Shown here: in pieces, positions 23,413-64,000 of the stretch | Layout of the letters: each line of letters starts with the position of its first letter | Position numbering within the stretch: position 1 is the first letter of the stretch | From: Bacteroidota bacterium | GTDB taxonomy: Bacteria; Bacteroidota; Bacteroidia; Chitinophagales; Chitinophagaceae | DNA: 64,000 bases | Direction: 5' to 3' | NCBI GenBank assembly: GCA_013289175.1 | Contig: JABDAN010000003.1 | Span: forward strand, 1-64,000 | Notes under the pieces: model-generated | Told to the model about the DNA's origin: nothing | The model's database searches: none | The model's input: the letters and a program-made list of their open reading frames with translations, nothing else | Position numbers and translations under genes: made by a program

Positions 23413-24501
23413 ATGGAAGAGAGACTGATTTTGGAATCGATCGAAAGGTATATCCGCGGTGAAATGCTTGCCGAGGAAAGGAAGTTTTTTGAAGAACTCA
23501 GAAAATCAAATCCCAGTGTCGACCAGATGGTGGTGGAGCACACTGTTTTCCTGCACCTGATGGAAAAATATGGTGACCGCAAAAACATCAAGTCCACTTT
23601 ACAGGATGTGCACAATGAACTATTTGAAACGGGTCAGATCAAACAATCCAAAGAAACCAAAGTCGTTCGTCTTTGGCTGAAATACCGCAAAGTGGTGGCC
23701 GTCGCAGCTTCCATTGCTTGCGTTACCGCGCTGTCCATCAGCGCCATTACTTCTTACTATACTCCCAGAATACCCAACACCCGCCTGGAAAACCTGGACC
23801 GGAAAATATCCTTGCTGGCATCGGGTCAGATAAAAATCAATGATAAATTAAATAAATCCATAGTCAAGGTACCGGTGGAACCCGATTTTAAATTGGGTGG
23901 AACAGTTTTTATGATTGATCCTAGGGGATACATTGTCACCAATGCACACGTGATCAGCAATTCGGCCGTCGTCATTGTCCAAAATGATAAGGGTCAGGAA
24001 TTCAAGACAAAAATTGTATACATCAGTCCCAATGCCGACCTGGCTTTTTTGAAAATAGTTGACAGTGATTTCAAGGCCACCAATGTATTGCCTTATGCGA
24101 TCAGCAAGGGCAATATCGAATTGGGTGAAGCCATTTTTACACTGGGATATCCAAGGGATGAAATCGTTTACGGAGAAGGATACCTGAGTGCAAAAACAGG
24201 ATACAGTGGTGATACACTGGCCTGTCAGATTGCGATCGCCGCCAATCCGGGTAACAGCGGAGGTCCGGTTATAGACAAAAACGGTGAAGTCATCGGTGTA
24301 CTCAGCAATCGTCAGTCTCAGGCCCAAGGTGCTGTATTTGCCCTTCGTTCCAAAAATATCTACGCGGCCCTGGAGGAAATGAAATCAGATACCAGCCTGG
24401 CTGTCATTCATCCCACCCAGATTTCCACGGTAAAAAATATGGACCGGGTGGGACAGATCAAGAAAATTGAAGACTATATCTATCTGGTAAAAAGCTATTA
24501 A
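23413..24501 (+). CDS. Membrane-anchored trypsin-like (S1C/HtrA-type) serine protease with an anti-sigma-like N-terminus
   Basis: 362 residues. Residues 1-50 (LESIERYIRGEML-x-EERKFFEELRKSNPS) resemble the short cytosolic segment seen at the N-terminus of Bacteroidota anti-sigma factors. One membrane span follows at ~93-113. The extracytoplasmic part is a trypsin-like domain with H179 in TNAHVIS, D209 in PNADLAFLKI and S282 in NPGNSGGPV, a full triad. There is no PDZ domain, unlike DegP/DegS. Encoded 18 nt after the ECF sigma gene, it could be an anti-sigma factor whose own outer domain is the sensor or protease. That role is inference; the protease assignment is firm. Confidence 0.88.
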   Translation: MEERLILESIERYIRGEMLAEERKFFEELRKSNPSVDQMVVEHTVFLHLMEKYGDRKNIKSTLQDVHNELFETGQIKQSKETKVVRLWLKYRKVVAVAASIACVTALSISAITSYYTPRIPNTRLENLDRKISLLASGQIKINDKLNKSIVKVPVEPDFKLGGTVFMIDPRGYIVTNAHVISNSAVVIVQNDKGQEFKTKIVYISPNADLAFLKIVDSDFKATNVLPYAISKGNIELGEAIFTLGYPRDEIVYGEGYLSAKTGYSGDTLACQIAIAANPGNSGGPVIDKNGEVIGVLSNRQSQAQGAVFALRSKNIYAALEEMKSDTSLAVIHPTQISTVKNMDRVGQIKKIEDYIYLVKSY

Positions 24502-50650: not shown

Positions 50651-51748
50651 CTAGTTACAGCCGAGTAGCGCACAAAGTTTGGAATCCAAATCCGAACCCC
50701 GCAGATTCTTACCAATGATCTTTCCGTTCGGGTCTACCAGGAAGTTTTGGGGTATTTGTGAAATTCGGTACTCCCTCGCTACCTCATTGTTCCAGAATTT
50801 CAAATCGCTGACCTGGGACCAGGCCAGTTTGTCGTCCTGTATCGCTTTGATCCAGGATGCCCGATTCTGGTCAAGAGAAACGCCGAGCACGGTAAAATTT
50901 TTGGCCTTGAATTTCTCATAAGCTTCCAGCACATTGGGGTTTTCCATTCTGCAGGGCTTGCACCAACTGGCCCAAAAATCTACCAGCACATATTTTCCTT
51001 TGAAAGATGAAAGACTTACCGGCATTCCGGCGGTATCGTTCTGGGTAAAATCCATGGCTTCACTGCCAATGGCTCCTACTTTGCCGTTGTCGATCTGTTC
51101 CTGTAAATATTTTCCATACATACTTTGTTGGACTGTGGGCGAGAGGGATTGCAGGCGGCGTTCCAGCAAAAACACATCTTCCGATAGTTGGTTTACCACC
51201 ACCAACAAAAATGGGCTTACATAGGACGACCGGTTTAACTGAATAAAACTATCCACTTTCATCTGAATGGTCATGGCCTGGTTCTGATAGGCCATCATGA
51301 TCGAATCTTTTTTTGCAGCCCCCTGGGGTGAATTGGCCAACTGGCTGAGTACATTCATCTGACCAAACAAGGGATTGAATTCCTTTTCAAAACGTTGAAA
51401 ATCCAGCTCGCTGGCAGATCCCGTTACCGCGATGCTCCCCAGATCGGACACGTCTCCATTTATCAAAACGTTTTCGTTGCCAATAAACAAGGTGGTTTTC
51501 TTTTGCGCCGATATAAAACTGATGACAAACAGGTTTGGCTCCAGTACATGACCGGTAAGGATAAATATTCCACCTTTTACGGTCGTCCGTGCCAGGGTAT
51601 CGGTCGGTTTATTGGCGTCCGTCAGAACCACCGTGGACCGGTCGGCTACTCCCCGGATATGTCCCTCAATGCGAAACCCTGCGGGTTTCGTTTGCTGGGC
51701 CTGGAGACTGCCAATGATGAATACAAGAAATATGGAGTATTTTTTCAT
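50651..51748 (-). CDS. Exported thioredoxin-like (TlpA/AhpC-TSA) protein with an N-terminal DUF4369-like domain
   Basis: 365 residues. Sec signal peptide to about residue 18 (IIGSLQAQQ). Residues ~24-110 form a DUF4369-like beta domain; a helical linker follows; residues ~230-365 are a thioredoxin fold with the redox pair C263-K-P-C266 in FWASWCKPCRMENP and a cis-Pro in SQIPQNFLVD. It is likely a periplasmic disulfide or thiol reductase, common in Bacteroidota. Its ATG overlaps the hisIE stop by 4 nt, so it is the last gene of the trp-his transcript although its job is unrelated. Confidence 0.9.
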   Translation of the reverse strand: MKKYSIFLVFIIGSLQAQQTKPAGFRIEGHIRGVADRSTVVLTDANKPTDTLARTTVKGGIFILTGHVLEPNLFVISFISAQKKTTLFIGNENVLINGDVSDLGSIAVTGSASELDFQRFEKEFNPLFGQMNVLSQLANSPQGAAKKDSIMMAYQNQAMTIQMKVDSFIQLNRSSYVSPFLLVVVNQLSEDVFLLERRLQSLSPTVQQSMYGKYLQEQIDNGKVGAIGSEAMDFTQNDTAGMPVSLSSFKGKYVLVDFWASWCKPCRMENPNVLEAYEKFKAKNFTVLGVSLDQNRASWIKAIQDDKLAWSQVSDLKFWNNEVAREYRISQIPQNFLVDPNGKIIGKNLRGSDLDSKLCALLGCN

Positions 51749-52350
51749 GCCTTTTTTTTATCATGTCGTTCCTGAAGAACGCTGGTAACCTCTTTTAAAT
51801 TATGTCCTTTTGCCTCTAATAATATGAGAAAATGAAAGAGCAGATCGGCCGCTTCATTCAAAAACAAACCATCATCGCCGTCTTTTGACTCAATTACCAA
51901 CTCAACGGCTTCCTCCCCTACTTTCTGAGCGATTTTATTGATTCCTTTCTTAAACAAACCGGAAACATAAGAGTTCTCTGACGGTTGATTTTTTCTTTCA
52001 TAAATGATTTTTTCAAGTTCTTGCAGAAAATCGTCCGTTTCATTGGTTTCGTTCCAGCAGGTATCTGCTCCCGTATGACAAACCGGCCCCTGCGGCTCAG
52101 CTTTGATCAGCAGGGTGTCCTGGTCACAATCCAGTTTGATGTCTTTTAGAATCAGGAAATGACCACTTTCTTCACCCTTGGTCCACAATCTTTTTTTTGA
52201 CCGGCTGTAAAAACAAACCTTCCCCTGGTTGCGGGTTTTGTCGAGTGCCTCCTGGTTCATGAATCCGAGCATGAGTACTTTATGGGTACTATCATCCTGC
52301 ACGATGGCCGGTACCAGCCCGTCACCGTATTTTGAAAAATTAACTTCCAT
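51745..52350 (-). CDS. hisIE: Bifunctional phosphoribosyl-AMP cyclohydrolase / phosphoribosyl-ATP pyrophosphatase (HisIE)
   Basis: 201 residues; steps 2 and 3 of histidine synthesis. The HisI domain (1-~105) has MLGFMNQEALDKT, FYSRSKKRLWTKGEESGHF and CDQDTLL...GPVCHTGADTCW with zinc/magnesium ligands; the HisE domain (~110-201) has SYVSGLFKKGINKIAQKVGEEAVELVIES and EAADLLFHFLILL, an all-alpha NTP pyrophosphatase. It starts 9 nt after hisF; a -7-like element overlaps the hisF stop. Overlaps the TlpA-like start by 4 nt. Confidence 0.97.
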   Translation of the reverse strand: MEVNFSKYGDGLVPAIVQDDSTHKVLMLGFMNQEALDKTRNQGKVCFYSRSKKRLWTKGEESGHFLILKDIKLDCDQDTLLIKAEPQGPVCHTGADTCWNETNETDDFLQELEKIIYERKNQPSENSYVSGLFKKGINKIAQKVGEEAVELVIESKDGDDGLFLNEAADLLFHFLILLEAKGHNLKEVTSVLQERHDKKKA

Positions 52351-52354
52351 GTGT

Positions 52355-52362
52355 CAAAATTA
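52355..52362 (-). promoter_or_regulatory. Possible internal -7 element, leaderless hisIE
   Basis: TAATTTTG on the minus strand matches TAnnTTTG, ends 4 nt before the hisIE ATG and contains the hisF stop codon. It may be chance in an operon, but it repeats the spacing seen at lipB, def and pdxJ. Confidence 0.4.
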
Positions 52363-53118
52363 TATTCTAATATCTATGCCCTCACTGTTGAGATACCGTT
52401 TTAAATCCGGAATGGAAATTTCCCGAAAATGAAAGATACTGGCTGCCAGGGCTGCATCCGCTTTCCCCTCCTTAAATATTTCAGAAAAATGAGACATCTT
52501 TCCACCGCCTCCCGAAGCGATGACCGGAACCCGGAGATTTTCAGCGAGCAAGCGGGTTAACTCCAAAGCAAAACCTGCTTTGGTTCCGTCATGATCCATG
52601 GAGGTCAATAAAATTTCTCCGGCTCCCATATCCACGCCCCTTTTTGCCCAGTCCAAACACTGGGTTTGGGTCGCAACCCGTCCCCCATTCAAATAAACAT
52701 AGTCTTGATTGTCCGGCCCTTTTTTTACATCGATGGCCAGCACCACACACTGGCTGCCAAATGCCCTTGCCAATTCTGAGATGAGTGCTGGTTTTTTAAA
52801 TGCAGCGGTATTAACGGAAATTTTATCGGCTCCGTTATTCAACAACAAGCTCACATCATCAATCGAAGAAATTCCACCTCCTACAGTAAAGGGAATATTG
52901 ATATGGTGGGCAATGCGGCGCGCCAGGTCACTCAGTGTTTTTCTTTTCTCATGTGTAGCAGTAATATCCAGAAAAACGAGTTCATCTGCACCTTCCGACG
53001 CATATCGCATACCCAGTTCCACGGGATCACCTGCATCGCGCAGGTCAACAAAATTGGTGCCCTTTACCGTTCTTCCATCCCGGATATCCAGACAGGGTAT
53101 GATTCGTTTAGTTAACAT
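52360..53118 (-). CDS. hisF: Imidazole glycerol phosphate synthase subunit HisF
   Basis: A 252-residue (beta/alpha)8 barrel that, with HisH, makes imidazole glycerol phosphate and AICAR. The catalytic aspartates are D11 in IPCLDIRDG and that in VLAIDVKKG (~130); phosphate sites are FTVGGGISS and VIASGGGGK. It overlaps the hisA end by 11 nt, which suggests translational coupling. Confidence 0.98.
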
Positions 53119-53830
53119 GGGCGAGTTCCTTGAGTGTGATCAATCCCTCATAAATTGCTTTGCCGACTATAACCCCCCGGCATCCTGCTTCCTCCAACTC
53201 GAAAATGTCTTGCAAGGAACGGACTCCTCCACTGGCAATAAAGTGTAGGTCACTGAAACGTTTCAGGATCTTCTTATAAAGCGTGAAGGAGGGACCTTTC
53301 ATCGCCCCATCCAGGTGGATATCGGTACAAAAGATTTGTTTGACGCCCGCTGTTTTGAAATTTTCTATAAAATCAAAAACGGAAATTTCCGTGTCGACCG
53401 TCCATCCTGTAATGGAAATTTTCTCATCCCGGACATCCGCCCCCAAAATGAATTTATCTGCCTGGTATTGAATCAGCCATTTTTTCAGCAGGGCCTCATC
53501 CTTAACCGCCAGGCTTCCCAGCGTTGCAAAACGTGCGCCTGAATCAAAAACAATTTGCAGATCTTTTGCAGACCCGATTCCGCCTCCAAAATCAACGATA
53601 AGGTTGGTCTTCCCAGCAACCTGTTCAAGCACATTCCAATTTTTAACCCGTCCTTCCCGGGCACCATCCAGGTCTACCAGATGAAGCCTTTTCAATCCAG
53701 CATCTTCGAACTGCTGCGCTACTTCCAGTGGATGTTCGTTATAGATTTTCTGGCTCGAATAATCGCCCTGGGTCAATCGCACGCATTTCCCATGCAGAAT
53801 ATCAATGGCAGGAATAATTTCTATGGACAT
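53108..53830 (-). CDS. hisA: 1-(5-phosphoribosyl)-5-[(5-phosphoribosylamino)methylideneamino]imidazole-4-carboxamide isomerase HisA
   Basis: A 240-residue (beta/alpha)8 barrel, homologous to HisF. D8 in [16 protein letters not shown] and the second catalytic Asp in [15 protein letters not shown] (~170); phosphate loops DFGGGIGS and IASGGVRS. It isomerises ProFAR to PRFAR. Nine nt after hisH. Some organisms use one PriA enzyme for HisA and TrpF, but here a separate trpF is present. Confidence 0.97.
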
Positions 53831-53839
53831 GAGATGATA

Positions 53840-54433
53840 CTACAATTGAATAAAATTTCTAAGAATGTTTTCCCCTACGCTTGCGCTCTTTTCCGGATGA
53901 AACTGAACGCCATAAAAATTTCCCCTGTGCAGTGCCGAACTGTAGGGCTGGACATAATCCGTTTTCGCGATGGTCGTTTCACCGAGCCCAGCATAATATC
54001 CGTGAACGCAATAACAAAAACTATTCTCCGCAATCCCGGTAAACAGTGCCGATTTGAGGTCATAGATATTATTCCAACCCGTTTGTGGCACTTTAAGGGA
54101 CTGTCCGGGAGAAGGTTGAAATTTCTTGACCTGTTCACTGAATATTCCCAGGCACTCCGTGTCATTTTCCTCCGAGTGACGACAAAGCAACTGCATGCCT
54201 AGACATACACCGAGCACCGGCTGATTCAGATTTCGAATCAGGGCATCCAGTTTTCTTTCCTTCAGATAATTCATAGCCGAACTGGCTTCACCCACGCCAG
54301 GAAAAATAACTTTGTCCGCACCCTGGATCCGTTCCGGATCGTCGGTTACCTCGGCACTGGCATCAATTCGTTCCAGCGCGAATAAAACCGACTGAATATT
54401 GCCCGCATTGTATTTGATGATAACAATTTTCAT
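53840..54433 (-). CDS. hisH: Imidazole glycerol phosphate synthase glutamine amidotransferase subunit HisH
   Basis: A 197-residue class I glutaminase that supplies ammonia to HisF. The nucleophile is C77 in VLGVCLGMQLLC, with the His/Glu dyad in FYGVQFHPEKSA near the C-terminus; PGVGEA is the oxyanion-hole region. The start ATG overlaps the trpA stop by 4 nt (ATGA), the exact junction between the trp and his gene sets. Confidence 0.98.
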   Translation of the reverse strand: MKIVIIKYNAGNIQSVLFALERIDASAEVTDDPERIQGADKVIFPGVGEASSAMNYLKERKLDALIRNLNQPVLGVCLGMQLLCRHSEENDTECLGIFSEQVKKFQPSPGQSLKVPQTGWNNIYDLKSALFTGIAENSFCYCVHGYYAGLGETTIAKTDYVQPYSSALHRGNFYGVQFHPEKSASVGENILRNFIQL

Positions 54434-55203
54434 CTTAGGGATTTAATGAACTGGACCGTACGACGATGGATGTCTTGCTCGGACGCCCCATCCAGTACCT
54501 TAATATAAGCTGTTCCTATAATGGCGCCTTGGGCCAGGGAGCAGGCAGCAGTGAAGCTGGTCTTGTCCTTGATGCCAAAACCAATCAGGACCGGGTTTTT
54601 TAGTTTCATGGATTGAAGTCTTCTGAAATAAGGTTCCTGATCTGACAGGGCCGCATTTTTTCCGGTAGTGGAAGACGAGGAAACCGCATAAAGAAATCCA
54701 CTGCTTAACTCATCGAGCTGCATGATTCGTTCGTCGCTGGTTTCCGGTGTCACCAGAAATACAAAATCCAGTTGGTACTTTTTAATTATCTCACCAAATT
54801 CCCGTTCAAATTCAAACATGGGTAGGTCCGGTAAAATCAAGCCGTCGATGCCTGCGTGGGCAGCATCTGCACAAAATTTTTCAAACCCGTACTGTAAAAT
54901 CGGATTCATATAGCCCATGAGCAGTACGGGTAAATGTATTTCCTTCCGAAAATCTTTTAGCTGTTCAAAGAGTGTTCTGATGGACATTCCATTTTGCAGC
55001 GCCCGGGCACTGCTGGATTGGATTACCGGACCGTCAGCCAATGGATCACTATAGGGCATTCCCAATTCGATCATATCGGCACCCGCTTCCTGCAGTGCTT
55101 TCATAACCGGTATGGTATCCCCTAAGGCAGGAAATCCCGCCGTGAAATAAACATTCAGGACCTCCTTTTTTTTTCTTTCCAACAATGACTGGATACGACT
55201 CAT
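54430..55203 (-). CDS. trpA: Tryptophan synthase alpha subunit
   Basis: A 257-residue TIM barrel cleaving indole-3-glycerol phosphate to indole. Catalytic E46 in ADMIELGMPYSDPLADGP with the nearby Asp of the same block; GFGIKDK binds phosphate. It starts 4 nt after trpB, and its stop overlaps the hisH start. The 3' end is therefore the point where tryptophan genes pass directly into histidine genes. Confidence 0.98.
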   Translation of the reverse strand: MSRIQSLLERKKKEVLNVYFTAGFPALGDTIPVMKALQEAGADMIELGMPYSDPLADGPVIQSSSARALQNGMSIRTLFEQLKDFRKEIHLPVLLMGYMNPILQYGFEKFCADAAHAGIDGLILPDLPMFEFEREFGEIIKKYQLDFVFLVTPETSDERIMQLDELSSGFLYAVSSSSTTGKNAALSDQEPYFRRLQSMKLKNPVLIGFGIKDKTSFTAACSLAQGAIIGTAYIKVLDGASEQDIHRRTVQFIKSLR

Positions 55204-55207
55204 AAGA

Positions 55208-56443
55208 TCAGTTGACTGGGGAGGAGGGATGAAATGTGGAAGTTTCAGGTTTTGCCATGGCCTGCATGTAGGTGTCTAGATCCTTGTCACCCCGGCCGCT
55301 CAGGCAAATCACTATGTTGTCTTGTTTTGCAAAATGAATTTTTTCAAGGATAGCCAGCGCATGGGCGGATTCAAGGGCCGGTATGATACCCTCCAGTCTG
55401 GCCAGCTGGAAAGCGGCTTTTAAAGCTTCTTGGTCGGTGGCACTATAAAATTCAGCCCTTTTTGATTTAAACAGATGAGCATGCATCGGGCCAATGCCGG
55501 GATAATCCAGTCCCGCTGAAATACTGTGTGGCTCTGTGACCTGCCCGTCTTGGGTTTGCATGACCAGGCTCCGGCTGCCGTGCAGGATTCCGTTTGTTCC
55601 CAGTGCGGTAGTGGCAGCGGACCGGCCGCTGTGGACCCCCTCACCCGCCGCTTCCACGGCCAGAAGGCGTACTTGTTTTTCATCCAGGAAATGAAAAAAA
55701 GCACCCGCGGCATTGCTTCCTCCGCCCACACAGGCGATGACGGCTGCTGGATTTTCGTTTCCTGTTTTTTCTTTCAGCTGCACTTTGATTTCCCGGCTGA
55801 TCACACTTTGAAATCCTGCCACCATATCCGGATAGGGATGCGGACCCACCACGCTGCCAATGATATAGTGGGTATCCAAAGGATGGTTGATCCAGTCACG
55901 GATGGCTTCATTGGTTGCATCCTTTAACGTCTTGCTGCCACTGGTGGCGGGAACGACGGTGGCACCGAGCATCTTCATTCTGGCCACATTGGGCGCCTGT
56001 CGAAGGATATCCTTTTCACCCATATATACAATGCACTCGAGCCCCTTCAAAGCACAAACTGTCGCCGTAGCCACGCCATGCTGGCCAGCGCCGGTTTCAG
56101 CAATAATTCTTTTTTTTCCGAGTTTTTCTGCTAGCAGGATCTGACCAATCGTATTGTTGATTTTATGGGCTCCGGTATGACAGAGGTCTTCGCGTTTCAG
56201 AAAAATATTGGTACGGTATTCCTGGCTAAGCCGGGATGCGAAAAACAGTGGGGTTGGCCTGCCCGCATAGTCTTTTAAAAGCATTTCAAACTCCTGGATG
56301 AAAGCGGGATCGCTGGTAATTTCCAGGTACCGCGATCTTAACTCCTCCACATTGCCGAAAAGCATCTCGGGAATGAAAGCTCCGCCGAATTCACCGTAGT
56401 ATCCCTGTTCGGTCGGATGCTGATATGTTGGATTATCGCTCAT
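55208..56443 (-). CDS. trpB: Tryptophan synthase beta subunit
   Basis: 411 residues, full length, TrpB1 type. PLP lysine K94 in CHTGAHKINNTIGQ; catalytic Glu in ETGAGQHGVA; phosphate loop CVGGGSNAAG; LDYPGIGPMHA and the C-terminal CLSGRGDKD. It joins indole and serine. 43 nt after trpF, 4 nt before trpA. Confidence 0.98.
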   Translation of the reverse strand: MSDNPTYQHPTEQGYYGEFGGAFIPEMLFGNVEELRSRYLEITSDPAFIQEFEMLLKDYAGRPTPLFFASRLSQEYRTNIFLKREDLCHTGAHKINNTIGQILLAEKLGKKRIIAETGAGQHGVATATVCALKGLECIVYMGEKDILRQAPNVARMKMLGATVVPATSGSKTLKDATNEAIRDWINHPLDTHYIIGSVVGPHPYPDMVAGFQSVISREIKVQLKEKTGNENPAAVIACVGGGSNAAGAFFHFLDEKQVRLLAVEAAGEGVHSGRSAATTALGTNGILHGSRSLVMQTQDGQVTEPHSISAGLDYPGIGPMHAHLFKSKRAEFYSATDQEALKAAFQLARLEGIIPALESAHALAILEKIHFAKQDNIVICLSGRGDKDLDTYMQAMAKPETSTFHPSSPVN

Positions 56444-56486
56444 ATATTCTCCATTGTCTTTTCCTTACACCTAAAAACTTGCGACT

Positions 56487-57128
56487 TCAGGTTTTTGGAT
56501 TGAGGTCTTCTAAAAATGTTTTTATTTTGAGAAGGTCTTTGACCCCGTTTTGGATCTCGAACCGGCTGTTGATATCGACAGAAAATAGTTTTTTGGCGAC
56601 GTCTTCCTCAGCGAAAGACTTTAATTTTTCGGTGTCCTCAGGTTCGATACCCCCGCTTAGAAAAAAAAGTTTGTCTATACCAGCTGGTTTCAGAAGTTCC
56701 CAGTTGAACTTTTTTCCTGTTCCGCCATAACCCACACCCAGGGTGTCAAACAAAAACATGTCACAGGATTCTTCAAAGGGTTTGATTATCCAGGATATCG
56801 GATCGTTTTCACCGAGCCTGAACACTTTGATAACCGTAACATAATTGGCAATCTGCTCACAGGCCCGGGGTGTCTCATCTCCATGCAACTGCACCATATC
56901 CAGTCCGTAGTCATCCACCGTACGCATCATCTGCTCATAAGGCGTATTTACAAAAACGCCTACTTTGCCTATCCTCAGTTTTGCTTTTCGCATCTGTTCT
57001 CCCGAGATGTGATGACCGGCATACCGGGGTGACTTCTGGTAGAAGATAAATCCGGCAAAATCCACCCCCATATCTTCCAGCTTCTTAACCTGTGGGAGCT
57101 GCGTCATTCCGCAAACTTTTACTCTCAT
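56487..57128 (-). CDS. trpF: Phosphoribosylanthranilate isomerase
   Basis: A 213-residue barrel. KVCGMTQ carries the catalytic Cys at residue 6; GFIFYQKSPRY and QLHGDE are typical, the general-acid Asp is in LFDTLG, and FLSGGIEPED binds phosphate. The start overlaps the end of trpC by 44 nt, longer than the other overlaps of this operon, so the trpC C-terminus or the trpF start may deserve a check, although both frames look conserved. Confidence 0.96.
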   Translation of the reverse strand: MRVKVCGMTQLPQVKKLEDMGVDFAGFIFYQKSPRYAGHHISGEQMRKAKLRIGKVGVFVNTPYEQMMRTVDDYGLDMVQLHGDETPRACEQIANYVTVIKVFRLGENDPISWIIKPFEESCDMFLFDTLGVGYGGTGKKFNWELLKPAGIDKLFFLSGGIEPEDTEKLKSFAEEDVAKKLFSVDINSRFEIQNGVKDLLKIKTFLEDLNPKT

Positions 57129-57918
57129 AGCTATTGCTTTTTAGTTGGTCAACAAATGAGGCAAAAGCAATCGCGGGATCGGGTGACTTCATAAACTGCT
57201 CTCCGATCAGAAAACCGTCAAATCCAGCCGATTTCATGTTCAAAACAGTCTGGCTATCTGAGATACCACTCTCAGCAACCCGCAATATATGCAAGGGCAA
57301 TTGTTCAGCAAGCCGGATTGACCTTTCAATATCCACGGTAAATGTTTTCAAGTCCCGGTTATTGATACCCACCACATCCACCTCTTCACAAAAATGTTCA
57401 AGCTCCGATTCTTCGTGAATTTCCAGCAACACTTCCAAACCCAACTGATGGGCAAATTTAGCCAGGATACGGGTTTGACCCGGAACCAGGCAGGCGGCAA
57501 TCAGCAATATCACGTCCGCACCCATGGCTTTGGTTTCCACGACCTGATAGGCATCTACTATAAAATCCTTTCGGAGAATAGGAAGGGAATTGAAGCGGGC
57601 TTTTTCCAAGTCCTCCGTACTTCCGCCAAAAGATGGTCCATCGGTCAATACGGAAATTAGGGAAGCTCCGTGTGCAGCATACCCGGCTGTAACTTCCTCT
57701 ACCAACACCCGGTCATTGAGTATGCCCTTGGAAGGTGACTTTCTTTTGAATTCAGCAATAATGCCCGTTTTAGCGGGATCCTTCAGAAATTTTTTCATCG
57801 AGAAAACCTGCCTGGTAAATCCGGGTTGCCTCTCCAAAACCGCAACCGGCGTTTCCAGCTTTCTTTTTTCAATCTCTTCCATCTTGTAGGATATGATATG
57901 GTCCAAGATATTTTTCAT
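57085..57918 (-). CDS. trpC: Indole-3-glycerol phosphate synthase
   Basis: A 277-residue barrel. FAEFKRKSPSKG-type motif (IIAEFKRKSPSKGIL) with the catalytic Lys, LTDGPSFGGS, ILRKDFIVDAYQV, EVLLEIHEESEL, GINNRDLKTF and AESGI. A separate (non-fused) TrpC, as usual in Bacteroidota. 31 nt after trpD; its last 44 nt overlap trpF. Confidence 0.97.
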   Translation of the reverse strand: MKNILDHIISYKMEEIEKRKLETPVAVLERQPGFTRQVFSMKKFLKDPAKTGIIAEFKRKSPSKGILNDRVLVEEVTAGYAAHGASLISVLTDGPSFGGSTEDLEKARFNSLPILRKDFIVDAYQVVETKAMGADVILLIAACLVPGQTRILAKFAHQLGLEVLLEIHEESELEHFCEEVDVVGINNRDLKTFTVDIERSIRLAEQLPLHILRVAESGISDSQTVLNMKSAGFDGFLIGEQFMKSPDPAIAFASFVDQLKSNSYESKSLRNDAAPTG

Positions 57919-57949
57919 GCTTACTGGTTTGATGCCCGTTCTAAAGAGT

Positions 57950-58945
57950 TTATGATTGCAAATGTATCAGGGTTTCCATGCTGGATAAAGCCTTGCCACT
58001 TTCCAGACTTTCCACAGCCGCAGCAAAGGCTAGATCGTACTGGCTATAAGCACCTGTGCAATAAAGTGCCATGGCCGCATTGGCAAGCACTACGGCGTTC
58101 TGGGCCCAGCTTCCCTTCCCTTTCAATATCGTAAGGAATATGCTGGCCGCTTCTTCCGGACTATTCCCTCCATAAATATCAGAGGGAGAAACCATTCTCT
58201 TACCCAGCTCCTCGGGTGTCATCACCCTTTCCCCTTCATTGGTAATGACGCGCGCATCACTGGTAAGGGAGAGTTCATCATAACCGTCCAAACTGTGTAT
58301 GATGGCAAAAGACGCATTGCTTTTTTGCAGCAGGTAGGTATATATTCTGGCCATTTCCAAATTGTAAACACCAATCAGTTGAAATTTTGGAAAAGCCGGA
58401 TTGACCAGTGGACCCAGCATATTGAAAAAAGTCCGGATACCCAGGTTTTTGCGAATACCCCCGACCGCTTTGAGCGCCGGGTGAAAAAGCGGTGCGTGCA
58501 GAAAACAGAAATTGGATTTTTCCAATTCCGATTTCAGCTTACCCGGATCATTGCTGAGTTTATAACCGAGCTGTTCCATTACATTAGATGCTCCGCTGAT
58601 GCTCGTCGCTCCGTAGTTTCCATGTTTGGCAACCTTTTGCCCAGCTCCCGCCACGATGAAACAGGCCAGCGTGGAAATATTAAAAGTGTTCTTTCCATCC
58701 CCTCCGGTCCCTACCACATCTATTACATCGTAGGCTTCCAAACCAGCTCTTACCGACAGTTCCAGGAGTGCATCCTGAAATCCCATCAGCTCATCGATTG
58801 TAATACTGCGCATCAGGAATACCGTAATGAAGGAGGTTATCTCCGATTCATTGTATTGACCCTGGGAGATATTGGACAGTACCTCTTTTGCTTGTTGCCT
58901 GGACAATGTTTTATACTCGAATAACAATTGTAAAATCTTTTTCAT
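57950..58945 (-). CDS. trpD: Anthranilate phosphoribosyltransferase
   Basis: 331 residues. The PRPP-binding VGTGGDGKNTFNIST (~80-94) is followed by KHGNYGATSISGASNVMEQLG, and the second metal site DELSLT is present. It transfers phosphoribose to anthranilate. It is not fused to trpG. Between trpG (90 nt) and trpC (31 nt). Confidence 0.97.
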   Translation of the reverse strand: MKKILQLLFEYKTLSRQQAKEVLSNISQGQYNESEITSFITVFLMRSITIDELMGFQDALLELSVRAGLEAYDVIDVVGTGGDGKNTFNISTLACFIVAGAGQKVAKHGNYGATSISGASNVMEQLGYKLSNDPGKLKSELEKSNFCFLHAPLFHPALKAVGGIRKNLGIRTFFNMLGPLVNPAFPKFQLIGVYNLEMARIYTYLLQKSNASFAIIHSLDGYDELSLTSDARVITNEGERVMTPEELGKRMVSPSDIYGGNSPEEAASIFLTILKGKGSWAQNAVVLANAAMALYCTGAYSQYDLAFAAAVESLESGKALSSMETLIHLQS

Positions 58946-59035
58946 TTTATTTGCTTGGAGCTGACATTCACAGTGAAGGTTTTTTTGGTTTCATTTTTTA
59001 CTCAATTTATCCCGCCGGTAAAATCAATTTTCCGA

Positions 59036-59635
59036 TCAGACCCCTTGTCTGGAAAGCCAGTTTCGCATAATCCATTCTCCATCTGGAGTGAGTACGCTTT
59101 CCGGATGAAACTGTACACCCAGTACATCGTATTTCCTGTGACGAAGGGCCATGATTAGCCCCTGGTCATCAACAGCGGTTACTTCCAGGGTTTTGGGAAA
59201 TCCGTTTGGATCAACCACCCAGCTATGATAACGACCCGCCATAAATCCGTCCGACAATCCATTGAAAAGATCTGCGTTCACCAAACTGTTTCGTGGATTC
59301 TGGGGAACGATGTTGATCCTCGTGGCTACACCGTGGTATACGGTCGAAAGATTTAAAAGATTGGCACCAAAGGCTTCTGCAATGGCCTGATGCCCCAGGC
59401 ATACGCCTAAAATTGATTTGGTAGTACCATAGCGTTTAATCAAAGGGAGTAAAAGACCCGCTTCGGAGGGAATCCCCGGACCGGGTGATAAAATAATCTT
59501 GTCATATTTTTCAACATCATCCAGAGTAATTTGATCATTGCGATGCACGGCCACCTTATCCCCAATAATTTTTTCTACCAGGTGCACCAGGTTATAGGTG
59601 AATGAATCATAATTATCAAAAACAAGAATTTTCAT
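59036..59635 (-). CDS. trpG: Anthranilate synthase component II (glutamine amidotransferase)
   Basis: A 199-residue class I amidotransferase. DNYDSFTYNLVH at the start, PGPGIPSEAG, nucleophile C79 in LGVCLGHQAIAEAFG, and VQFHPESVLTP with the His/Glu dyad. It provides ammonia to TrpE; it could also serve 4-amino-4-deoxychorismate synthase (PabA role), as no other copy is visible. Eight nt after trpE. Confidence 0.97.
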   Translation of the reverse strand: MKILVFDNYDSFTYNLVHLVEKIIGDKVAVHRNDQITLDDVEKYDKIILSPGPGIPSEAGLLLPLIKRYGTTKSILGVCLGHQAIAEAFGANLLNLSTVYHGVATRINIVPQNPRNSLVNADLFNGLSDGFMAGRYHSWVVDPNGFPKTLEVTAVDDQGLIMALRHRKYDVLGVQFHPESVLTPDGEWIMRNWLSRQGV

Positions 59636-59643
59636 AATCAGTT

Positions 59644-61053
59644 TTATAAAGTTTCTGCTAGCGCAATCGCATTTTTTAAAGCCCCCAACTTGTGGTTCAC
59701 CTCTTCGAGTTCAGACTGCGGTTTGCTGGCTGCTACAATTCCTGCGCCGGCCTGGTAAGTCAGGGTATTGCGCCGACTCAGTAAACTGCGAATCATGATG
59801 GCTTGCGTACAGTTGCCATCGAAGCCAACAAATCCAATGCACCCGCCATAATAACTGCGGGCTGTAGGTTCATAACCGCTGATGAGTTCCATGGCGCGGA
59901 TTTTCGGTGCACCGCTGAGTGTACCCGCTGGAAAAGTAACTGCCAGTAGGTCAAATGGATTGGAAGCTTTTGGCAGCTTGCCTTTTACCTCGCTGACCAG
60001 GTGAATCACATGAGAATAATATTGAACTTCCCGGTAATAGACAACCGAAACCTCCGAACACTGCCGGCTCAGGTCATTGCGGGCCAGATCCACCAGCATG
60101 ACATGTTCTGCGTTTTCTTTGGCGTCTATTAAGAGCGCGTCGGCATTTTCCTTGTCTGTTTCATCGTTGCCTGTCCTTTTGCATGTTCCGGCAATGGGAT
60201 GCATGATGGCTTTGCCGTCCTTGATTAAAACCTGGGATTCTGGGGAAGAGCCCATCAGGCGGTAATCCCCGTAGTCGAAATAAAACAAATAGGGACTTGG
60301 ATTAACATTCCTGAGGGCCCGGTAGACATTGAATTCATCTCCGGTAAATCCTTGTTTGAATCGCCTGCTGAGTACAATTTGAAATACATCTCCACGCAAG
60401 CAGCTCTTAATGCCCTTGCTCACCATATCCCGGTAATCCTCATCGGTCATATTGCTGGTTTCCGGTCCCTGGAGTTGAAAAGGATAAACTGGCACGTCTT
60501 TGGAACGGATCAGCGATTCCACCAGCGCCAAATCGCTTTTTATTCCTTCGACCTGATTTTCACAAATATATAGTTCATCCTTAAAATGGTTGATGGCGAT
60601 CACGTATTGATAGAGGCGGTAACGCATCAGGGGAATAAGGGCAGGTTCCTGTTTTTCCTCCAGATGGATCTGGTCAAAAAAACGAACGGCATCATAGGTG
60701 GTATAACCAAAAAGGCTTTGAGCGGTTCGCACCGGTTTTTCGTCGGCTCCCTGCACATCAAAATGATCCATAAAGTCCCAGAGCAGGGACGGTACGCGGG
60801 CATCCTGAAGGGCGTATTTTTCTGTAGGCCGTCCGGGCAACTTACATTCCATTTGACGGGCATCGGAGATTTCAACGCCCCCAATGGCGTTGATACAAAT
60901 AAATGAAAAACTGTTTTCAGATGCGTGATAGTCGGTGCTTTCCAGCAATACCGTATCTCGAAACCGGTCACGAACCCGTAAATAGATTCCTACCGGCGTA
61001 TATATGTCCGACAGCAATTTTTTATAGGTCGTATGGAGAAGTATCTTTTTCAT
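59644..61053 (-). CDS. trpE: Anthranilate synthase component I
   Basis: 469 residues. C-terminal chorismate-binding domain: GDVFQIVLSRRF, SPEPS-like SSPESQVLIKDG, HPIAGTCKRTGNDETDKENADALLIDAKENAEHVMLVDLARND, and FPAGTLSGAPKIRAMELI. In the N-terminal domain the feedback motif for Trp (LLES) is seen as VLLESTDYHASENSFSF, so tryptophan inhibition is likely retained. First structural gene of the operon, 73 nt downstream of the attenuator T-run. Confidence 0.97.
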   Translation of the reverse strand: MKKILLHTTYKKLLSDIYTPVGIYLRVRDRFRDTVLLESTDYHASENSFSFICINAIGGVEISDARQMECKLPGRPTEKYALQDARVPSLLWDFMDHFDVQGADEKPVRTAQSLFGYTTYDAVRFFDQIHLEEKQEPALIPLMRYRLYQYVIAINHFKDELYICENQVEGIKSDLALVESLIRSKDVPVYPFQLQGPETSNMTDEDYRDMVSKGIKSCLRGDVFQIVLSRRFKQGFTGDEFNVYRALRNVNPSPYLFYFDYGDYRLMGSSPESQVLIKDGKAIMHPIAGTCKRTGNDETDKENADALLIDAKENAEHVMLVDLARNDLSRQCSEVSVVYYREVQYYSHVIHLVSEVKGKLPKASNPFDLLAVTFPAGTLSGAPKIRAMELISGYEPTARSYYGGCIGFVGFDGNCTQAIMIRSLLSRRNTLTYQAGAGIVAASKPQSELEEVNHKLGALKNAIALAETL

Positions 61054-61125
61054 TGTGAGAACTTACTTTTTTTAAAAACTAAGGCGTCGCCAGAAATTCT
61101 TTCTCTTAACCATTTGGGCTGAAAT

Positions 61126-61152
61126 AAAAAAAGCCCCGGAATGAACCGGGGC
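61126..61152 (-). terminator. trp attenuator terminator hairpin
   Basis: On the minus strand GCCCCGG (61152-61146), loop TTCATT, CCGGGGC (61139-61133), then seven T (61132-61126). It lies between trpL and trpE. The 5' arm can alternatively pair with CGGGGC at 61193-61188 inside the leader-peptide gene (antiterminator). Confidence 0.85.
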
Positions 61153-61181
61153 CTGATATGTTTAATAACATAGCGATCGCA

Positions 61182-61244
61182 TTACGCGCCCCGAACGGAG
61201 TTTGTATGCCACCACCATGCTTTATTGAGTATCTGATTTGTCAT
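61182..61244 (-). CDS. trpL: trp operon leader peptide with three consecutive Trp codons
   Basis: A 20-codon ORF (ATG at 61244, TAA ending at 61182). Residues 10-12 are Trp-Trp-Trp (three TGG codons at 61217-61209); the rest is a short ordinary peptide ending VRGA. A ribosome stalled on the Trp codons would leave CGGGGC (codons 18-19) free to pair with the terminator 5' arm and allow readthrough into trpE; a ribosome reaching the stop would cover it and let the terminator form. This arrangement fits the Bacteroidetes trp leader idea (compare the Bacteroid-trp RNA motif). Its own promoter is just upstream. Confidence 0.85.
   Translation of the reverse strand: MTNQILNKAWWWHTNSVRGA
61188..61193 (-). 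promoter_or_regulatory. Antiterminator arm within trpL
   Basis: CGGGGC on the minus strand is fully complementary to GCCCCG of the terminator 5' arm (61152-61147). It overlaps codons Arg18-Gly19 of the leader peptide, the position expected for translation-controlled attenuation. Confidence 0.7.
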
Positions 61245-61250
61245 GCTTTG

Positions 61251-61282
61251 CAAATATGCGTGTTCATTTTGAAATTACCAAA
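61251..61282 (-). promoter_or_regulatory. Promoter of the trp-his operon
   Basis: On the minus strand, TTTG (61282-61279), 20 bp, then CATATTTG (61258-61251), one mismatch from TAnnTTTG, ending 6 nt before the trpL ATG. It lies in the 43 nt between the hisB stop and trpL, so the trp unit has its own start. Confidence 0.6.
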
Positions 61283-61287
61283 TTCCC

Positions 61288-62436
61288 TTAAATTATCCCC
61301 TTGGTCGTCGGAAGCCCCTCCTGGAGCGGATCTTTCTTTACTGCCATTCGAATGGCTTTGGCGAACGCCTTGAAAATCGCTTCGATTTTGTGATGCTCGT
61401 TCTGGCCGTGGCAGCTGATATTGAGATTGCACCGGGCGGCATCTGAAAAAGATTTGAAAAAATGAAAGAACATCTCCGTCGGCATGTCTCCGACTTTTTC
61501 CCTTTGGAAATGCGCATTCCAGACTATCCAGTTCCTTCCGCCAAAATCCAGTAACACTTGAGCATCTGCTTCATCCATCGGCAAGGCGAAACCATATCGT
61601 TCCATCCCTCTTTTGTCAGCAAGCGCTTTGGACATGGCTTCTCCCAACGCAATGCCGGTATCTTCAATGGTATGGTGTTCATCAATATGGAGATCACCCT
61701 GGACATCAATTTTCAAATCCATTTTTCCATGACGTGCGATCTGATCGAGCATATGATCAAAAAAAGCAAGACCCGTATGGATATCGGCTTTCCCATTTCC
61801 ATCGGCATTCAATTCAATCCTGATTTTTGTTTCCCGGGTATTCCTTTCATGTACCACCTGCCGCAAACCCAGTTTCAGAAACGAGTAAATATCCGACCAG
61901 CAAGTGGATTCCAGGGCGACTACTTCCTCCAGAGCCTTCTGCGAATCCTGGACTTCTTTAGCACCCAGTTCGGCGTCTTGTTTCAACCAGATCGCTTTGC
62001 ACCCCAGATTTTTTGCCAATTGGACATCGGTGATGCGGTCGCCGATTACGTAAGATCCGGGAAGATCGTACCGGTTATTGTCCATATATTCTTTGAGCAT
62101 ACCTGTTCCCGGTTTTCTATTGGGAGAATGATCTTCCGGAAAAGATCGATCGATATGAACGGCACTGAAATCAATCCCCTCATTTGCAAAACTGTTCATG
62201 ACGAAGTTCTGTACCGGCCAAAAAGTATTTTCAGGAAAAGCAGTAGTTCCCAGTCCGTCCTGGTTGGTTACCATAACCAGTTCATAGTCCATTTCCCGGG
62301 CGATTCTTCCCATGAATTCAAACACCCCCTTATAAAATTCGAGTTTACTGAAATCATCCACCTGGTAGCTGGGTGGCGCTTCTTTGATCAGCGTTCCATC
62401 GCGGTCTATAAATAAAATTCTTTTCATCAGACTCAT
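61288..62436 (-). CDS. hisB: Bifunctional histidinol-phosphatase / imidazoleglycerol-phosphate dehydratase (HisB)
   Basis: 382 residues. The N-terminal HAD phosphatase ([11 protein letters not shown], ~8-18; [28 protein letters not shown]) removes phosphate from histidinol phosphate; the C-terminal dehydratase (~205-382) has the Mn-binding [16 protein letters not shown] and [18 protein letters not shown] motifs. The first ATG (62436) overlaps the stop of the cytochrome c gene; a second ATG at 62427 is 3 codons in. hisG, hisD and hisC are not in the window, and hisH-A-F-IE are 7-10 kb away behind the trp genes. Confidence 0.96.
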
Positions 62437-62876
62437 TTCAGCTTGCTTCGGGTTGATTTAACTTCCGAGGCCTTCACAGCCGACGCTTTGTTTCCAAAAC
62501 TGTTTCGGATATAGGTCAGCACATCTGCAATTTCCCTATCCTTCATTTCCGGATGAGGTGGCATCACATTTTGGTATTTGTTTCCATCTATTTCCTGATG
62601 GGTAGCGAGTCCTTTTATCACGATCTCTATAAGCTTATTTTTGTCACCTGAAACGTCCTTGCCATTCAAAGGTGGATTCATATTGGAAGCACCCAGGCCA
62701 TCTGCCTGGTGACAGGCCAGGCATAGGCGAGCATAAATGACTTTGCCCGAATCCATGGATATCCGAAAAGGTGATTTCTTTACCGCGCAGTGATTGGATT
62801 GCGCTTTCAAAAATACCGGCAAGGACAGCAAACAAAAAAAGAGAAAATAGAAAAAAACAGTCGAAAAAATTTTCAT
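62433..62876 (-). CDS. Exported c-type cytochrome
   Basis: 147 residues. Sec signal peptide ([19 protein letters not shown]). One haem-attachment motif C52-L-A-C55-H56, and a likely axial Met at M105 in NVMPPHPEM, the class I mono-haem pattern. The C-terminus is basic ([13 protein letters not shown]). It starts 1 nt after the PQQ-type dehydrogenase gene and ends overlapping hisB, so it probably takes electrons from the dehydrogenase. Confidence 0.9.
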
Positions 62877-62877
62877 T

Positions 62878-64000
62878 TTATTTATAGGTTATTCTCCAGA
62901 TCGTTCCTTTGCTGTCATCGGTCACATACAATGCCCCGTCGGGTCCTTGTGCCAGGCCGCAAGGGCGATGCATGGCTCTTCCCGACGCTGTTTTTTCAGG
63001 ACTACCCGAAAAATTATTGGCAAAAATTTCCCAATTACCAGATGGTTTGCCATTGCTGAAAGGTACGAAAGCTACATAAAAGCCCTCCTGAGGCTCCGGC
63101 GCCCGGTTCCAGGATCCATGGAATGCGATGAAAGCCCCGTTTTTATATTTTTCAGGAAACTGACTGCCGGTATAAAACAAAAGTCCGTTGGGGGCTGTAT
63201 GTGCCGGAAAAGCCACCACCGGATCAATGGCGTCTTCACCCGCAGTTTTTACCCCGTCTCCTCCATATTCAGGCATGAGTATTTTTTTGTTTTGTGCAGG
63301 ATCATAATAAATATAGGGCCAACCTGCATTGTCTCCCTTATGCAGTTCATACAGGCATTCGGCCGGAAGAACCGCATTTTTCTTATCATCATAATATTGG
63401 GGGAACATGGTCAATTGATCGCGGCCATGCTGCATGACAAACAAGGTATTGTTGGAAGTATTCCAATCAATTCCCACTACGTTGCGCAAACCAGTGGCGT
63501 AGCGGTTGCCGTCTGCATAAGTCTGATTGAGCTTGTCTGCCCGGAACTGCCAAATGCCGGCAGCAGAGTCCAAGATGGGACAGGGTTTCATTCCCAGAGA
63601 ACCCGTTTTTCTATCTTCAACCTGACAGGAATTGGAATAGGCTCCGATATTCACGTAGATGTTTCCGTCGTTGTCCAGTGTAAAAGCCTTGGCTTCGTGT
63701 TCTCCCCGGGAAATCAATCCGGAAATGATTTTTTCGGGAGCCGCCGCGTTGGCCACTGTTCCATCCTCATTGAGTTTAAAACGGAAAACATCCTGGTCTG
63801 AAGATGCATACAGGTATCCGTTTTTAATACCGATTCCGGTTCCCTTGAAGGTTCCAAAATCCAACTCCTCGTCGGCTACCCCATCGCCGTTGGTATCTTT
63901 TAGGCGAACGATCGTGCCTTTGTTTTTGGTCCCGTCCAGTTTGACATAAATATATCCAGAAGGGGTTACGCAGATATGGCGCGCTTTTCCCAAGCCGTCT
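62878..64000 (-). CDS. PQQ-dependent sugar (sorbosone) dehydrogenase family protein (partial)
   Basis: The frame is open to the window edge, so the N-terminus is missing; 373 C-terminal residues are visible. Beta-propeller repeats (ARHICVTPSGYIYVKLDG, NGYLYASSDQDVF, YATGLRNVVGIDWN, PNGLLFYTGSQFP, FIAFHGSWNR, PCGLAQGPDGALYVTDDSKGTIWRI) match soluble-type PQQ glucose/sorbosone dehydrogenases. FHGSWNR and RPCGLAQGPDGALYVTDD are the strongest signatures. It is coupled to a c-type cytochrome by a 1-nt gap, a classic electron-acceptor pairing. Confidence 0.9.
   Translation of the reverse strand, partial: DGLGKARHICVTPSGYIYVKLDGTKNKGTIVRLKDTNGDGVADEELDFGTFKGTGIGIKNGYLYASSDQDVFRFKLNEDGTVANAAAPEKIISGLISRGEHEAKAFTLDNDGNIYVNIGAYSNSCQVEDRKTGSLGMKPCPILDSAAGIWQFRADKLNQTYADGNRYATGLRNVVGIDWNTSNNTLFVMQHGRDQLTMFPQYYDDKKNAVLPAECLYELHKGDNAGWPYIYYDPAQNKKILMPEYGGDGVKTAGEDAIDPVVAFPAHTAPNGLLFYTGSQFPEKYKNGAFIAFHGSWNRAPEPQEGFYVAFVPFSNGKPSGNWEIFANNFSGSPEKTASGRAMHRPCGLAQGPDGALYVTDDSKGTIWRITYK

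Follow-up and report, generated by a model that had tools for sequence, protein, structure and literature searches.

Within the Bacteroidota, the nearest relative of the element considered here is the Bacteroid-trp RNA (Rfam RF01692; source paper PMC2864571). The trp operon of Flavobacterium psychrophilum has this element conserved upstream of it, and a protease gene may be co-expressed with the operon (PMC6414381); strong indications that leader peptides attenuate amino-acid operons have been reported in the same species (PMC9723704). In other phyla, the rnTrpL/peTrpL system of Sinorhizobium meliloti produces an RNA that starts at the leader ATG itself (PMC7298713), and leaderless leader peptides have been described in Streptomyces lividans (PMC8079986). 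The available portion of a further paper (PMC4833913) does not treat trp in Bacteroidetes, and no paper on a trp attenuator of the Chitinophagaceae was found in the open-access literature searched.

The window analysed here is a stretch of 64,000 nucleotides from a member of that family, in which the stop codon of hisB (61288) and the ATG of trpE (61053), both on the minus strand, are separated by a gap of 234 nt. A first-pass annotation, made from the letters alone, had placed in this gap a promoter, a leader peptide with three consecutive Trp residues (WWW), an antiterminator arm, a hairpin and a run of seven T residues, and each of these was found again where it had been described. Judged from its sequence, the element before trpE is very probably a ribosome-mediated attenuator of trp operon transcription. 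Its parts, and the genes that it would control, are the following:

61279-61282, minus strand: TTTG, -33 element (sequence, fetched loci)
61251-61258, minus strand: CATATTTG, -7 box of the Bacteroidota TAnnTTTG type (sequence, conservation)
61182-61244, minus strand: leader ORF MTNQILNKAWWWHTNSVRGA, proposed trpL, 20 codons and TAA (TAA at 61184-61182) (sequence, conservation)
61209-61217, minus strand: TGG TGG TGG, proposed stall site and 5' strand of the anti-antiterminator stem (invariant in alignment A1, 29 loci)
61197-61200, minus strand: CTCC, 5' arm of a small hairpin sequestering segment 2, its partner being GGGG at 61192-61189 (window fold, consensus fold of 29 loci)
61188-61193, minus strand: segment 2, CGGGGC, codons 18-19, antiterminator arm (pairs with segment 3)
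61167-61181, minus strand: post-stop segment pairing with the Trp codons (window fold, linker shuffles)
61146-61153, minus strand: segment 3, terminator 5' arm GGCCCCGG (fold, terminator scan, covariation)
61126-61139, minus strand: segment 4, terminator 3' arm CCGGGGCT (61132-61139) with seven T residues (61126-61132) (fold, scan, covariation)
54430-61053, minus strand: trpE-trpG-trpD-trpC-trpF-trpB-trpA, proposed regulated genes (ORFs, Pfam)
51745-54433, minus strand: hisH-hisA-hisF-hisIE, proposed to lie on the trp transcript (ORFs, gene order)

Pfam supports the names hisB, trpE, trpG, trpD, trpC, trpF, trpB and trpA, and recognises a glutamine amidotransferase domain in the hisH product; hisA, hisF and hisIE were named from their own sequence. 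Further upstream, positions 62433-63999 of the window, which sit between hisG and hisB, hold a cytochrome c gene (Pfam) with a 4-nt overlap with hisB. This gene is preceded by what we take to be a sugar dehydrogenase gene. A cytochrome c match also lies directly upstream of hisB in many of the named loci (among the best 80 listed).

The tryptophan leader and its terminator

TrpE-like matches were present in 57 of 58 genomes, and the 30 best loci (29 from the window's genus, including the window, and one from a sister genus) were used. A WWW leader precedes trpE in all 30, and only 13 of them showed a hisB, most of the fetched sequences having about 1.5 kb before trpE. The three TGG codons are invariant across the 29 loci of alignment A1, from which L030 was excluded, its pre-trpE sequence stopping inside the terminator. 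The wider family survey covered 195 genomes, 141 of them with this TrpE, distributed over 75 of 101 genera, and one genome was taken per genus: an ATG-initiated ORF with at least two consecutive TGG codons lies at most 460 nt from trpE in 72 of the 75. The three genera without such an ORF, inspected by eye, comprise a WWW leader with a GTG start (g108), a single-Trp leader (g75) and one genome with none (g97). Six of the best 80 named loci listed lack a tandem-Trp leader, including L214, which is the g75 genome, and L213, whose sequence begins at trpE, so that a leader could not show there. Three genomes, G124, G091 and G107, match such named records without a difference over the stretch compared (Limnovirga soli, a Hydrotalea sp. 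and an uncultured bacterium), the first two records being from Chitinophagaceae. Outside the family, an ATG-initiated ORF with two consecutive Trp residues precedes trpE in 23 of 32 families (one trpE each, hand count), a count that leaves aside the TrpE-bearing families f30, f71 and f93.

The TGGTGGTGG motif alone proves little, since it occurs three times in the window against 0.62 expected, with one shuffle in 100 reaching three (the two further sites are at 51196-51204 on the minus strand and 23528-23536 on the plus strand); chance is excluded because the leader is conserved in relatives. A search by pattern (TGGTGGTGGCAY...YGRGGY), with matches in 66 of 195 genomes, proved too restrictive and also returned chance matches without trpE (L038, L053, L060), so the position relative to trpE was used instead. 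Leaders of other shapes were also seen: L029 has a lengthened leader with repeated KDKM-type units before WWW, and a second leader type, WWLSRWQ.VNS, was recognised by eye in L081, L114 and L138 (g2, g84, g54), where the antiterminator seems to pair into the terminator loop.

A terminator scan of 51500-62500 returned 12 terminator-like sites, a number not above that of shuffles (13.5), among which the hairpin of the trpE leader was listed first, with nine pairs, seven of them G-C. The 7-bp GC hairpin and T tract of the first reading are present, the stem itself extending to 8-9 pairs with flanking weaker pairs. A script found a terminator between leader and trpE in 70 of the 72 genera; g81 and g87, in which it found none, are outside the terminator statistics. 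From these 70, 52 candidates were drawn, and 48 of them form alignment A2 (L083, L087, L103 and L139 were omitted as other leader types). Over 48 genera, the nine terminator pairs are formed in 97.5% of cells, with 26 double-change cells against 5.7 in shuffles, and six of the nine pairs are changed on both sides. The first-pass annotation had proposed stalling-controlled attenuation, and had held that relatives keeping neither tandem Trp codons nor the hairpin would speak against it: the codons were instead found in all 30 fetched loci and in 72 of the 75 genera, and the terminator in 70 of 72, which supports the proposal.

Two other readings of these parts have to be weighed. The hairpin follows hisB in the window, terminators of this sort are common, and it might merely end the hisB transcript, the short ORF being there by chance. 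This is very improbable, as leader, promoter and hairpin are retained before trpE where hisB is absent or distant (of 63 named loci for which 3 kb of upstream sequence was available, only 16 have the end of hisB 700 nt or less from trpE, against a leader in 74 of the best 80 listed), and leader and hairpin covary. Control of trp by a T-box, a TRAP-like protein or a riboswitch is known elsewhere in bacteria, and tryptophan might be sensed in such a way here; with sensing codons that are invariant across 29 loci, and with neither the window nor 20 relatives giving a match to any Rfam family at its cut-off, this is extremely improbable. Matches below the Rfam thresholds (sroD, STnc480, trpB motif and others) were taken as chance hairpin similarity.

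Alternative pairings and ribosome states

The leader RNA of the window is predicted to fold at -44.6 kcal/mol (z -5.8, 200 shuffles) and contains, in order, a stem between the Trp codons and the post-stop RNA, the CUCC/GGGG hairpin within it, and then the terminator. The WWW codons had been recognised at the outset, while the fact that they themselves pair with RNA past the stop codon had been overlooked. This pairing is present in 67 of 70 genera, and the structure becomes less stable when the post-stop linker alone is shuffled (mean z -3.0; 57 of 70 below -1.64).

For the antiterminator, the strongest evidence from sequence is a swap test, in which each leader's own pairing with its terminator arm beats swapped combinations (z -6.3, 0 of 20,000 permutations, the relatedness of genera not being removed from this figure). 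It was added alongside a within-genome shuffle test of the leader-terminator duplex, which is weak because the ORF tail is G-rich, and which gives p<0.05 in only 37 of 70 genera and p 0.13 in the window. Covariation for the antiterminator alone is modest. In its true register, 83.2% of cells are paired, whereas no slid position of the partner exceeds 59.6%; there are 10 double-change cells (6 of 500 shuffles have at least as many) and four doubly changed pairs (51 of 500 have at least as many), in an alignment that has one leader type out of register. When the partner is moved by -2 or -3 columns, 14-15 double-change cells and as many doubly changed pairs result, with far fewer paired cells than in the true register. 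In L027 and L049 the three arms vary together (CGAGGC/GCCTCG/CGAGGC), and in some lineages the pairing region is replaced altogether, as seen by eye in L087 (CGCTGTGA/TCACAGCG) and in L081 (GAACAGC/GCTGTTC).

A ribosome is assumed to cover the RNA up to 12 nt past the first base of its A-site codon. For an RNA ending with the terminator loop, and with a ribosome stalled on the TGG codons, 67 of 70 genera are predicted to form at least four pairs between leader and segment 3, a number that falls to 32 of the 70 when the ribosome is left out; in the window the predicted numbers are seven pairs when stalled and two without a ribosome. By counting, a ribosome on the stop codon covers segment 2. 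At the level of sequence, the locus has both the ORF with tandem codons and the intrinsic terminator expected of an attenuator, and the antiterminator freed by stalling is found by prediction.

From these parts, their conservation and their alternative pairings, all visible in the sequence, we infer a course of events from transcription start to readthrough. Transcription would begin at the leader ATG or 2-3 nt before it, so that a ribosome could load once the 5' end of the RNA emerges. When tRNA-Trp is charged, the ribosome would reach the stop codon and cover segment 2, leaving segments 3 and 4 to form the terminator. When tryptophan is short, it would stall on the three TGG codons and open the stem between these codons and the post-stop RNA; the opened stem would release segment 2, which may then pair with segment 3, and the antiterminated RNA polymerase would continue into trpEGDCFBA and, by overlap, into hisHAFIE. 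If the leader is not translated, the stem would hold segment 2 closed and termination would be the default. This default-off state is not general across the family, since the antiterminator is predicted without a ribosome in 32 of the 70 genera.

Promoter and predicted start of the leader RNA

In the window, TTTG is followed by 20 nt, then CATATTTG, then 6 nt and the leader ATG at 61244. The promoter first annotated is borne out, what had been missed being that the start codon lies at the predicted transcription start. Among the 30 fetched loci, 29 have a TTTG that ends 6-7 nt upstream of an in-frame ATG (an earlier count gave 27), the exception being L021, where an insertion separates the ATG from the -7 box and the leader is lengthened. 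Across the family, 63 of 72 genera have a box of the form.A..TT[TC]G that ends 4-9 nt upstream of the leader ATG, an arrangement shared by 10 of 616 control ORFs (ordinary ORFs from the named loci). Since the first ATG of each open frame was taken as the control start, some of these starts will be wrong, and the control count may be an underestimate. A first box finder (60 of 72 at 4-9 nt) picked the -33 element in some leaders and was replaced by a regular expression, and the sigma-70 scan of region 51500-62500 does not model Bacteroidota promoters.

In F. psychrophilum the -7 box is located at -12 to -5 (PMC9723704), a spacing that would put the transcript start of the window 2-3 nt before the ATG. 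The conserved proximity of box and ATG in these 63 genera leads to the prediction of a leaderless or near-leaderless transcript, and the leader gene appears, on this reading of the sequence, to begin at the 5'-terminal base of the RNA or no more than a few bases away. Short 5' UTRs are rare in the Bacteroidota, about 3.7% of 5' UTRs being shorter than 10 nt in B. thetaiotaomicron (PMC7366714) and 5.5% of transcripts being leaderless in F. psychrophilum (PMC9723704), so that a conserved short one is informative.

The attenuator might nevertheless be real and preceded by an ordinary 5' UTR, with a start further upstream: the start in the window is predicted with a box-to-start distance borrowed from Flavobacterium (PMC9723704), readthrough from hisB would carry the leader internally, and the close box is missing in 9 of 72 genera. 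Such an arrangement is unlikely given how rarely control ORFs have a box at 4-9 nt, and given that 28 of the 30 close relatives carry a TTG 20 nt upstream of the box, so that a start at or next to the ATG remains the preferred reading.

Spacing varies elsewhere in the phylum. In Bacteroid-trp loci the distance from -7 box to ATG is 16-22 nt in 16 of 20 and 5 nt in the other four (L066, L068, L075, L079), and these four suggest that near-leaderless starts may recur across the phylum. In L265 (G501, family f79), by eye, a Trp leader seems to be initiated by TTG 7 nt past the -7 box, and is possibly leaderless.

Bacteroidota mRNAs do not carry Shine-Dalgarno signals. How, then, would ribosome loading be fast enough for coupling to RNA polymerase on a 20-codon leader?

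The histidine genes and relation to known attenuators

In the window trpA and hisH overlap by 4 nt. Of 51 named loci, 38 continue from trpA straight into hisH-hisA-hisF, the distance between trpA and hisH ranging from -3 to 161 nt; no hisH was found in the other 13. The first-pass annotation had extended tryptophan control to the downstream histidine genes, and gene order (the overlap and these 38 loci) supports this: the trp switch probably gates these genes as well. What it could not see is that hisG, just beyond the window (G000:C3:66883-67347), has a His leader of its own. In 11 of the 12 genomes examined, hisG has upstream of it a short ORF with at least three consecutive His codons, followed, by eye, by a hairpin and a T tract. 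In L224, the stretch of G000:C3 upstream of 66883-67347, the His leader before hisG reads MKKSFTIHHHHSLPRR and then stop, and a GCTTATCGAAAGATAAG hairpin stands in at least three copies in a row, an arrangement not seen in the other hisG loci compared. With a His leader at hisG and a Trp leader before trpE, the cluster appears to hold a His switch first and a Trp switch mid-way.

A broader proposal, to which we give somewhat less than an even chance, is that the trp attenuator of this family evolved an essentially leaderless start of its leader, tying ribosome loading to the first transcribed bases, and that, within a his-trp-his cluster placed behind the His attenuator of hisG, the second half of the histidine pathway would be gated by both tryptophan and histidine. 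Why should histidine genes sit under a tryptophan switch? The mechanism is ordinary in kind and, as read from sequence, well supported, in a lineage without an Rfam model; new are the putative leaderless or near-leaderless start, the spread across the family and the apparent His-Trp arrangement. Leader-peptide attenuation would thereby extend beyond the Bacteroid-trp RNA to 72 of 75 sampled trp-bearing genera of one Bacteroidota family.

Bacteroid-trp (RF01692) shares with the present element a WWW leader peptide (YWW in one case), a hairpin over the Trp codons, a terminator and its host phylum. The covariance search with its model that the first-pass annotation had proposed gave no match at the Rfam threshold, and the window and 20 relatives are all below the 49-bit cut-off. 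With fast filters, 26 of 247 genomes in a phylum sample had Bacteroid-trp, these belonging to families f24 and f30; the window's family, of which at least eight genomes were sampled, contributed none of them. The Bacteroid-trp antiterminator, GTCGTGA/TCACGAC, seems by eye to involve the loop and 3' arm of the terminator.

A model of the present element, R1, built from 48 genera including the window, matches three of four Bacteroid-trp loci (L062 at 41.5, L061 at 34.7 and L064 at 31.6 bits; none in L066), with E values of 8e-8 to 3e-5 from a short calibration; these matches might reflect common descent, but could also come from the TGG codons and terminator that both share. It also matches 12 of 14 loci from other families at E<0.001. 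Within the family, R1 matches 116 of 195 genomes at E<1e-6, 68 of them outside the model (hand count). At E<=0.01 it matches 183 of 195, many with several weak matches, which we read as mostly chance terminators, so that only matches at E<1e-6 were counted.

The E. coli-type attenuator (Trp_leader, RF00513) has likewise tandem Trp codons, a competing antiterminator and a terminator before trpE, but the window reaches 19.1 bits where the cut-off is 41, the best of 10 loci examined being L085 (38.5) and L046 (28.1). The layout differs as well from that of E. coli: segment 2 is here part of the ORF, and the Trp codons pair with RNA past the stop. The leaderless systems of S. meliloti and S. lividans belong to other phyla and have other sequences, and the start in the window is predicted, probably 0-3 nt upstream of the ATG. 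Closer at hand, the attenuator-like leader peptides of F. psychrophilum resemble the present one in preceding amino-acid operons within the same phylum (PMC9723704).
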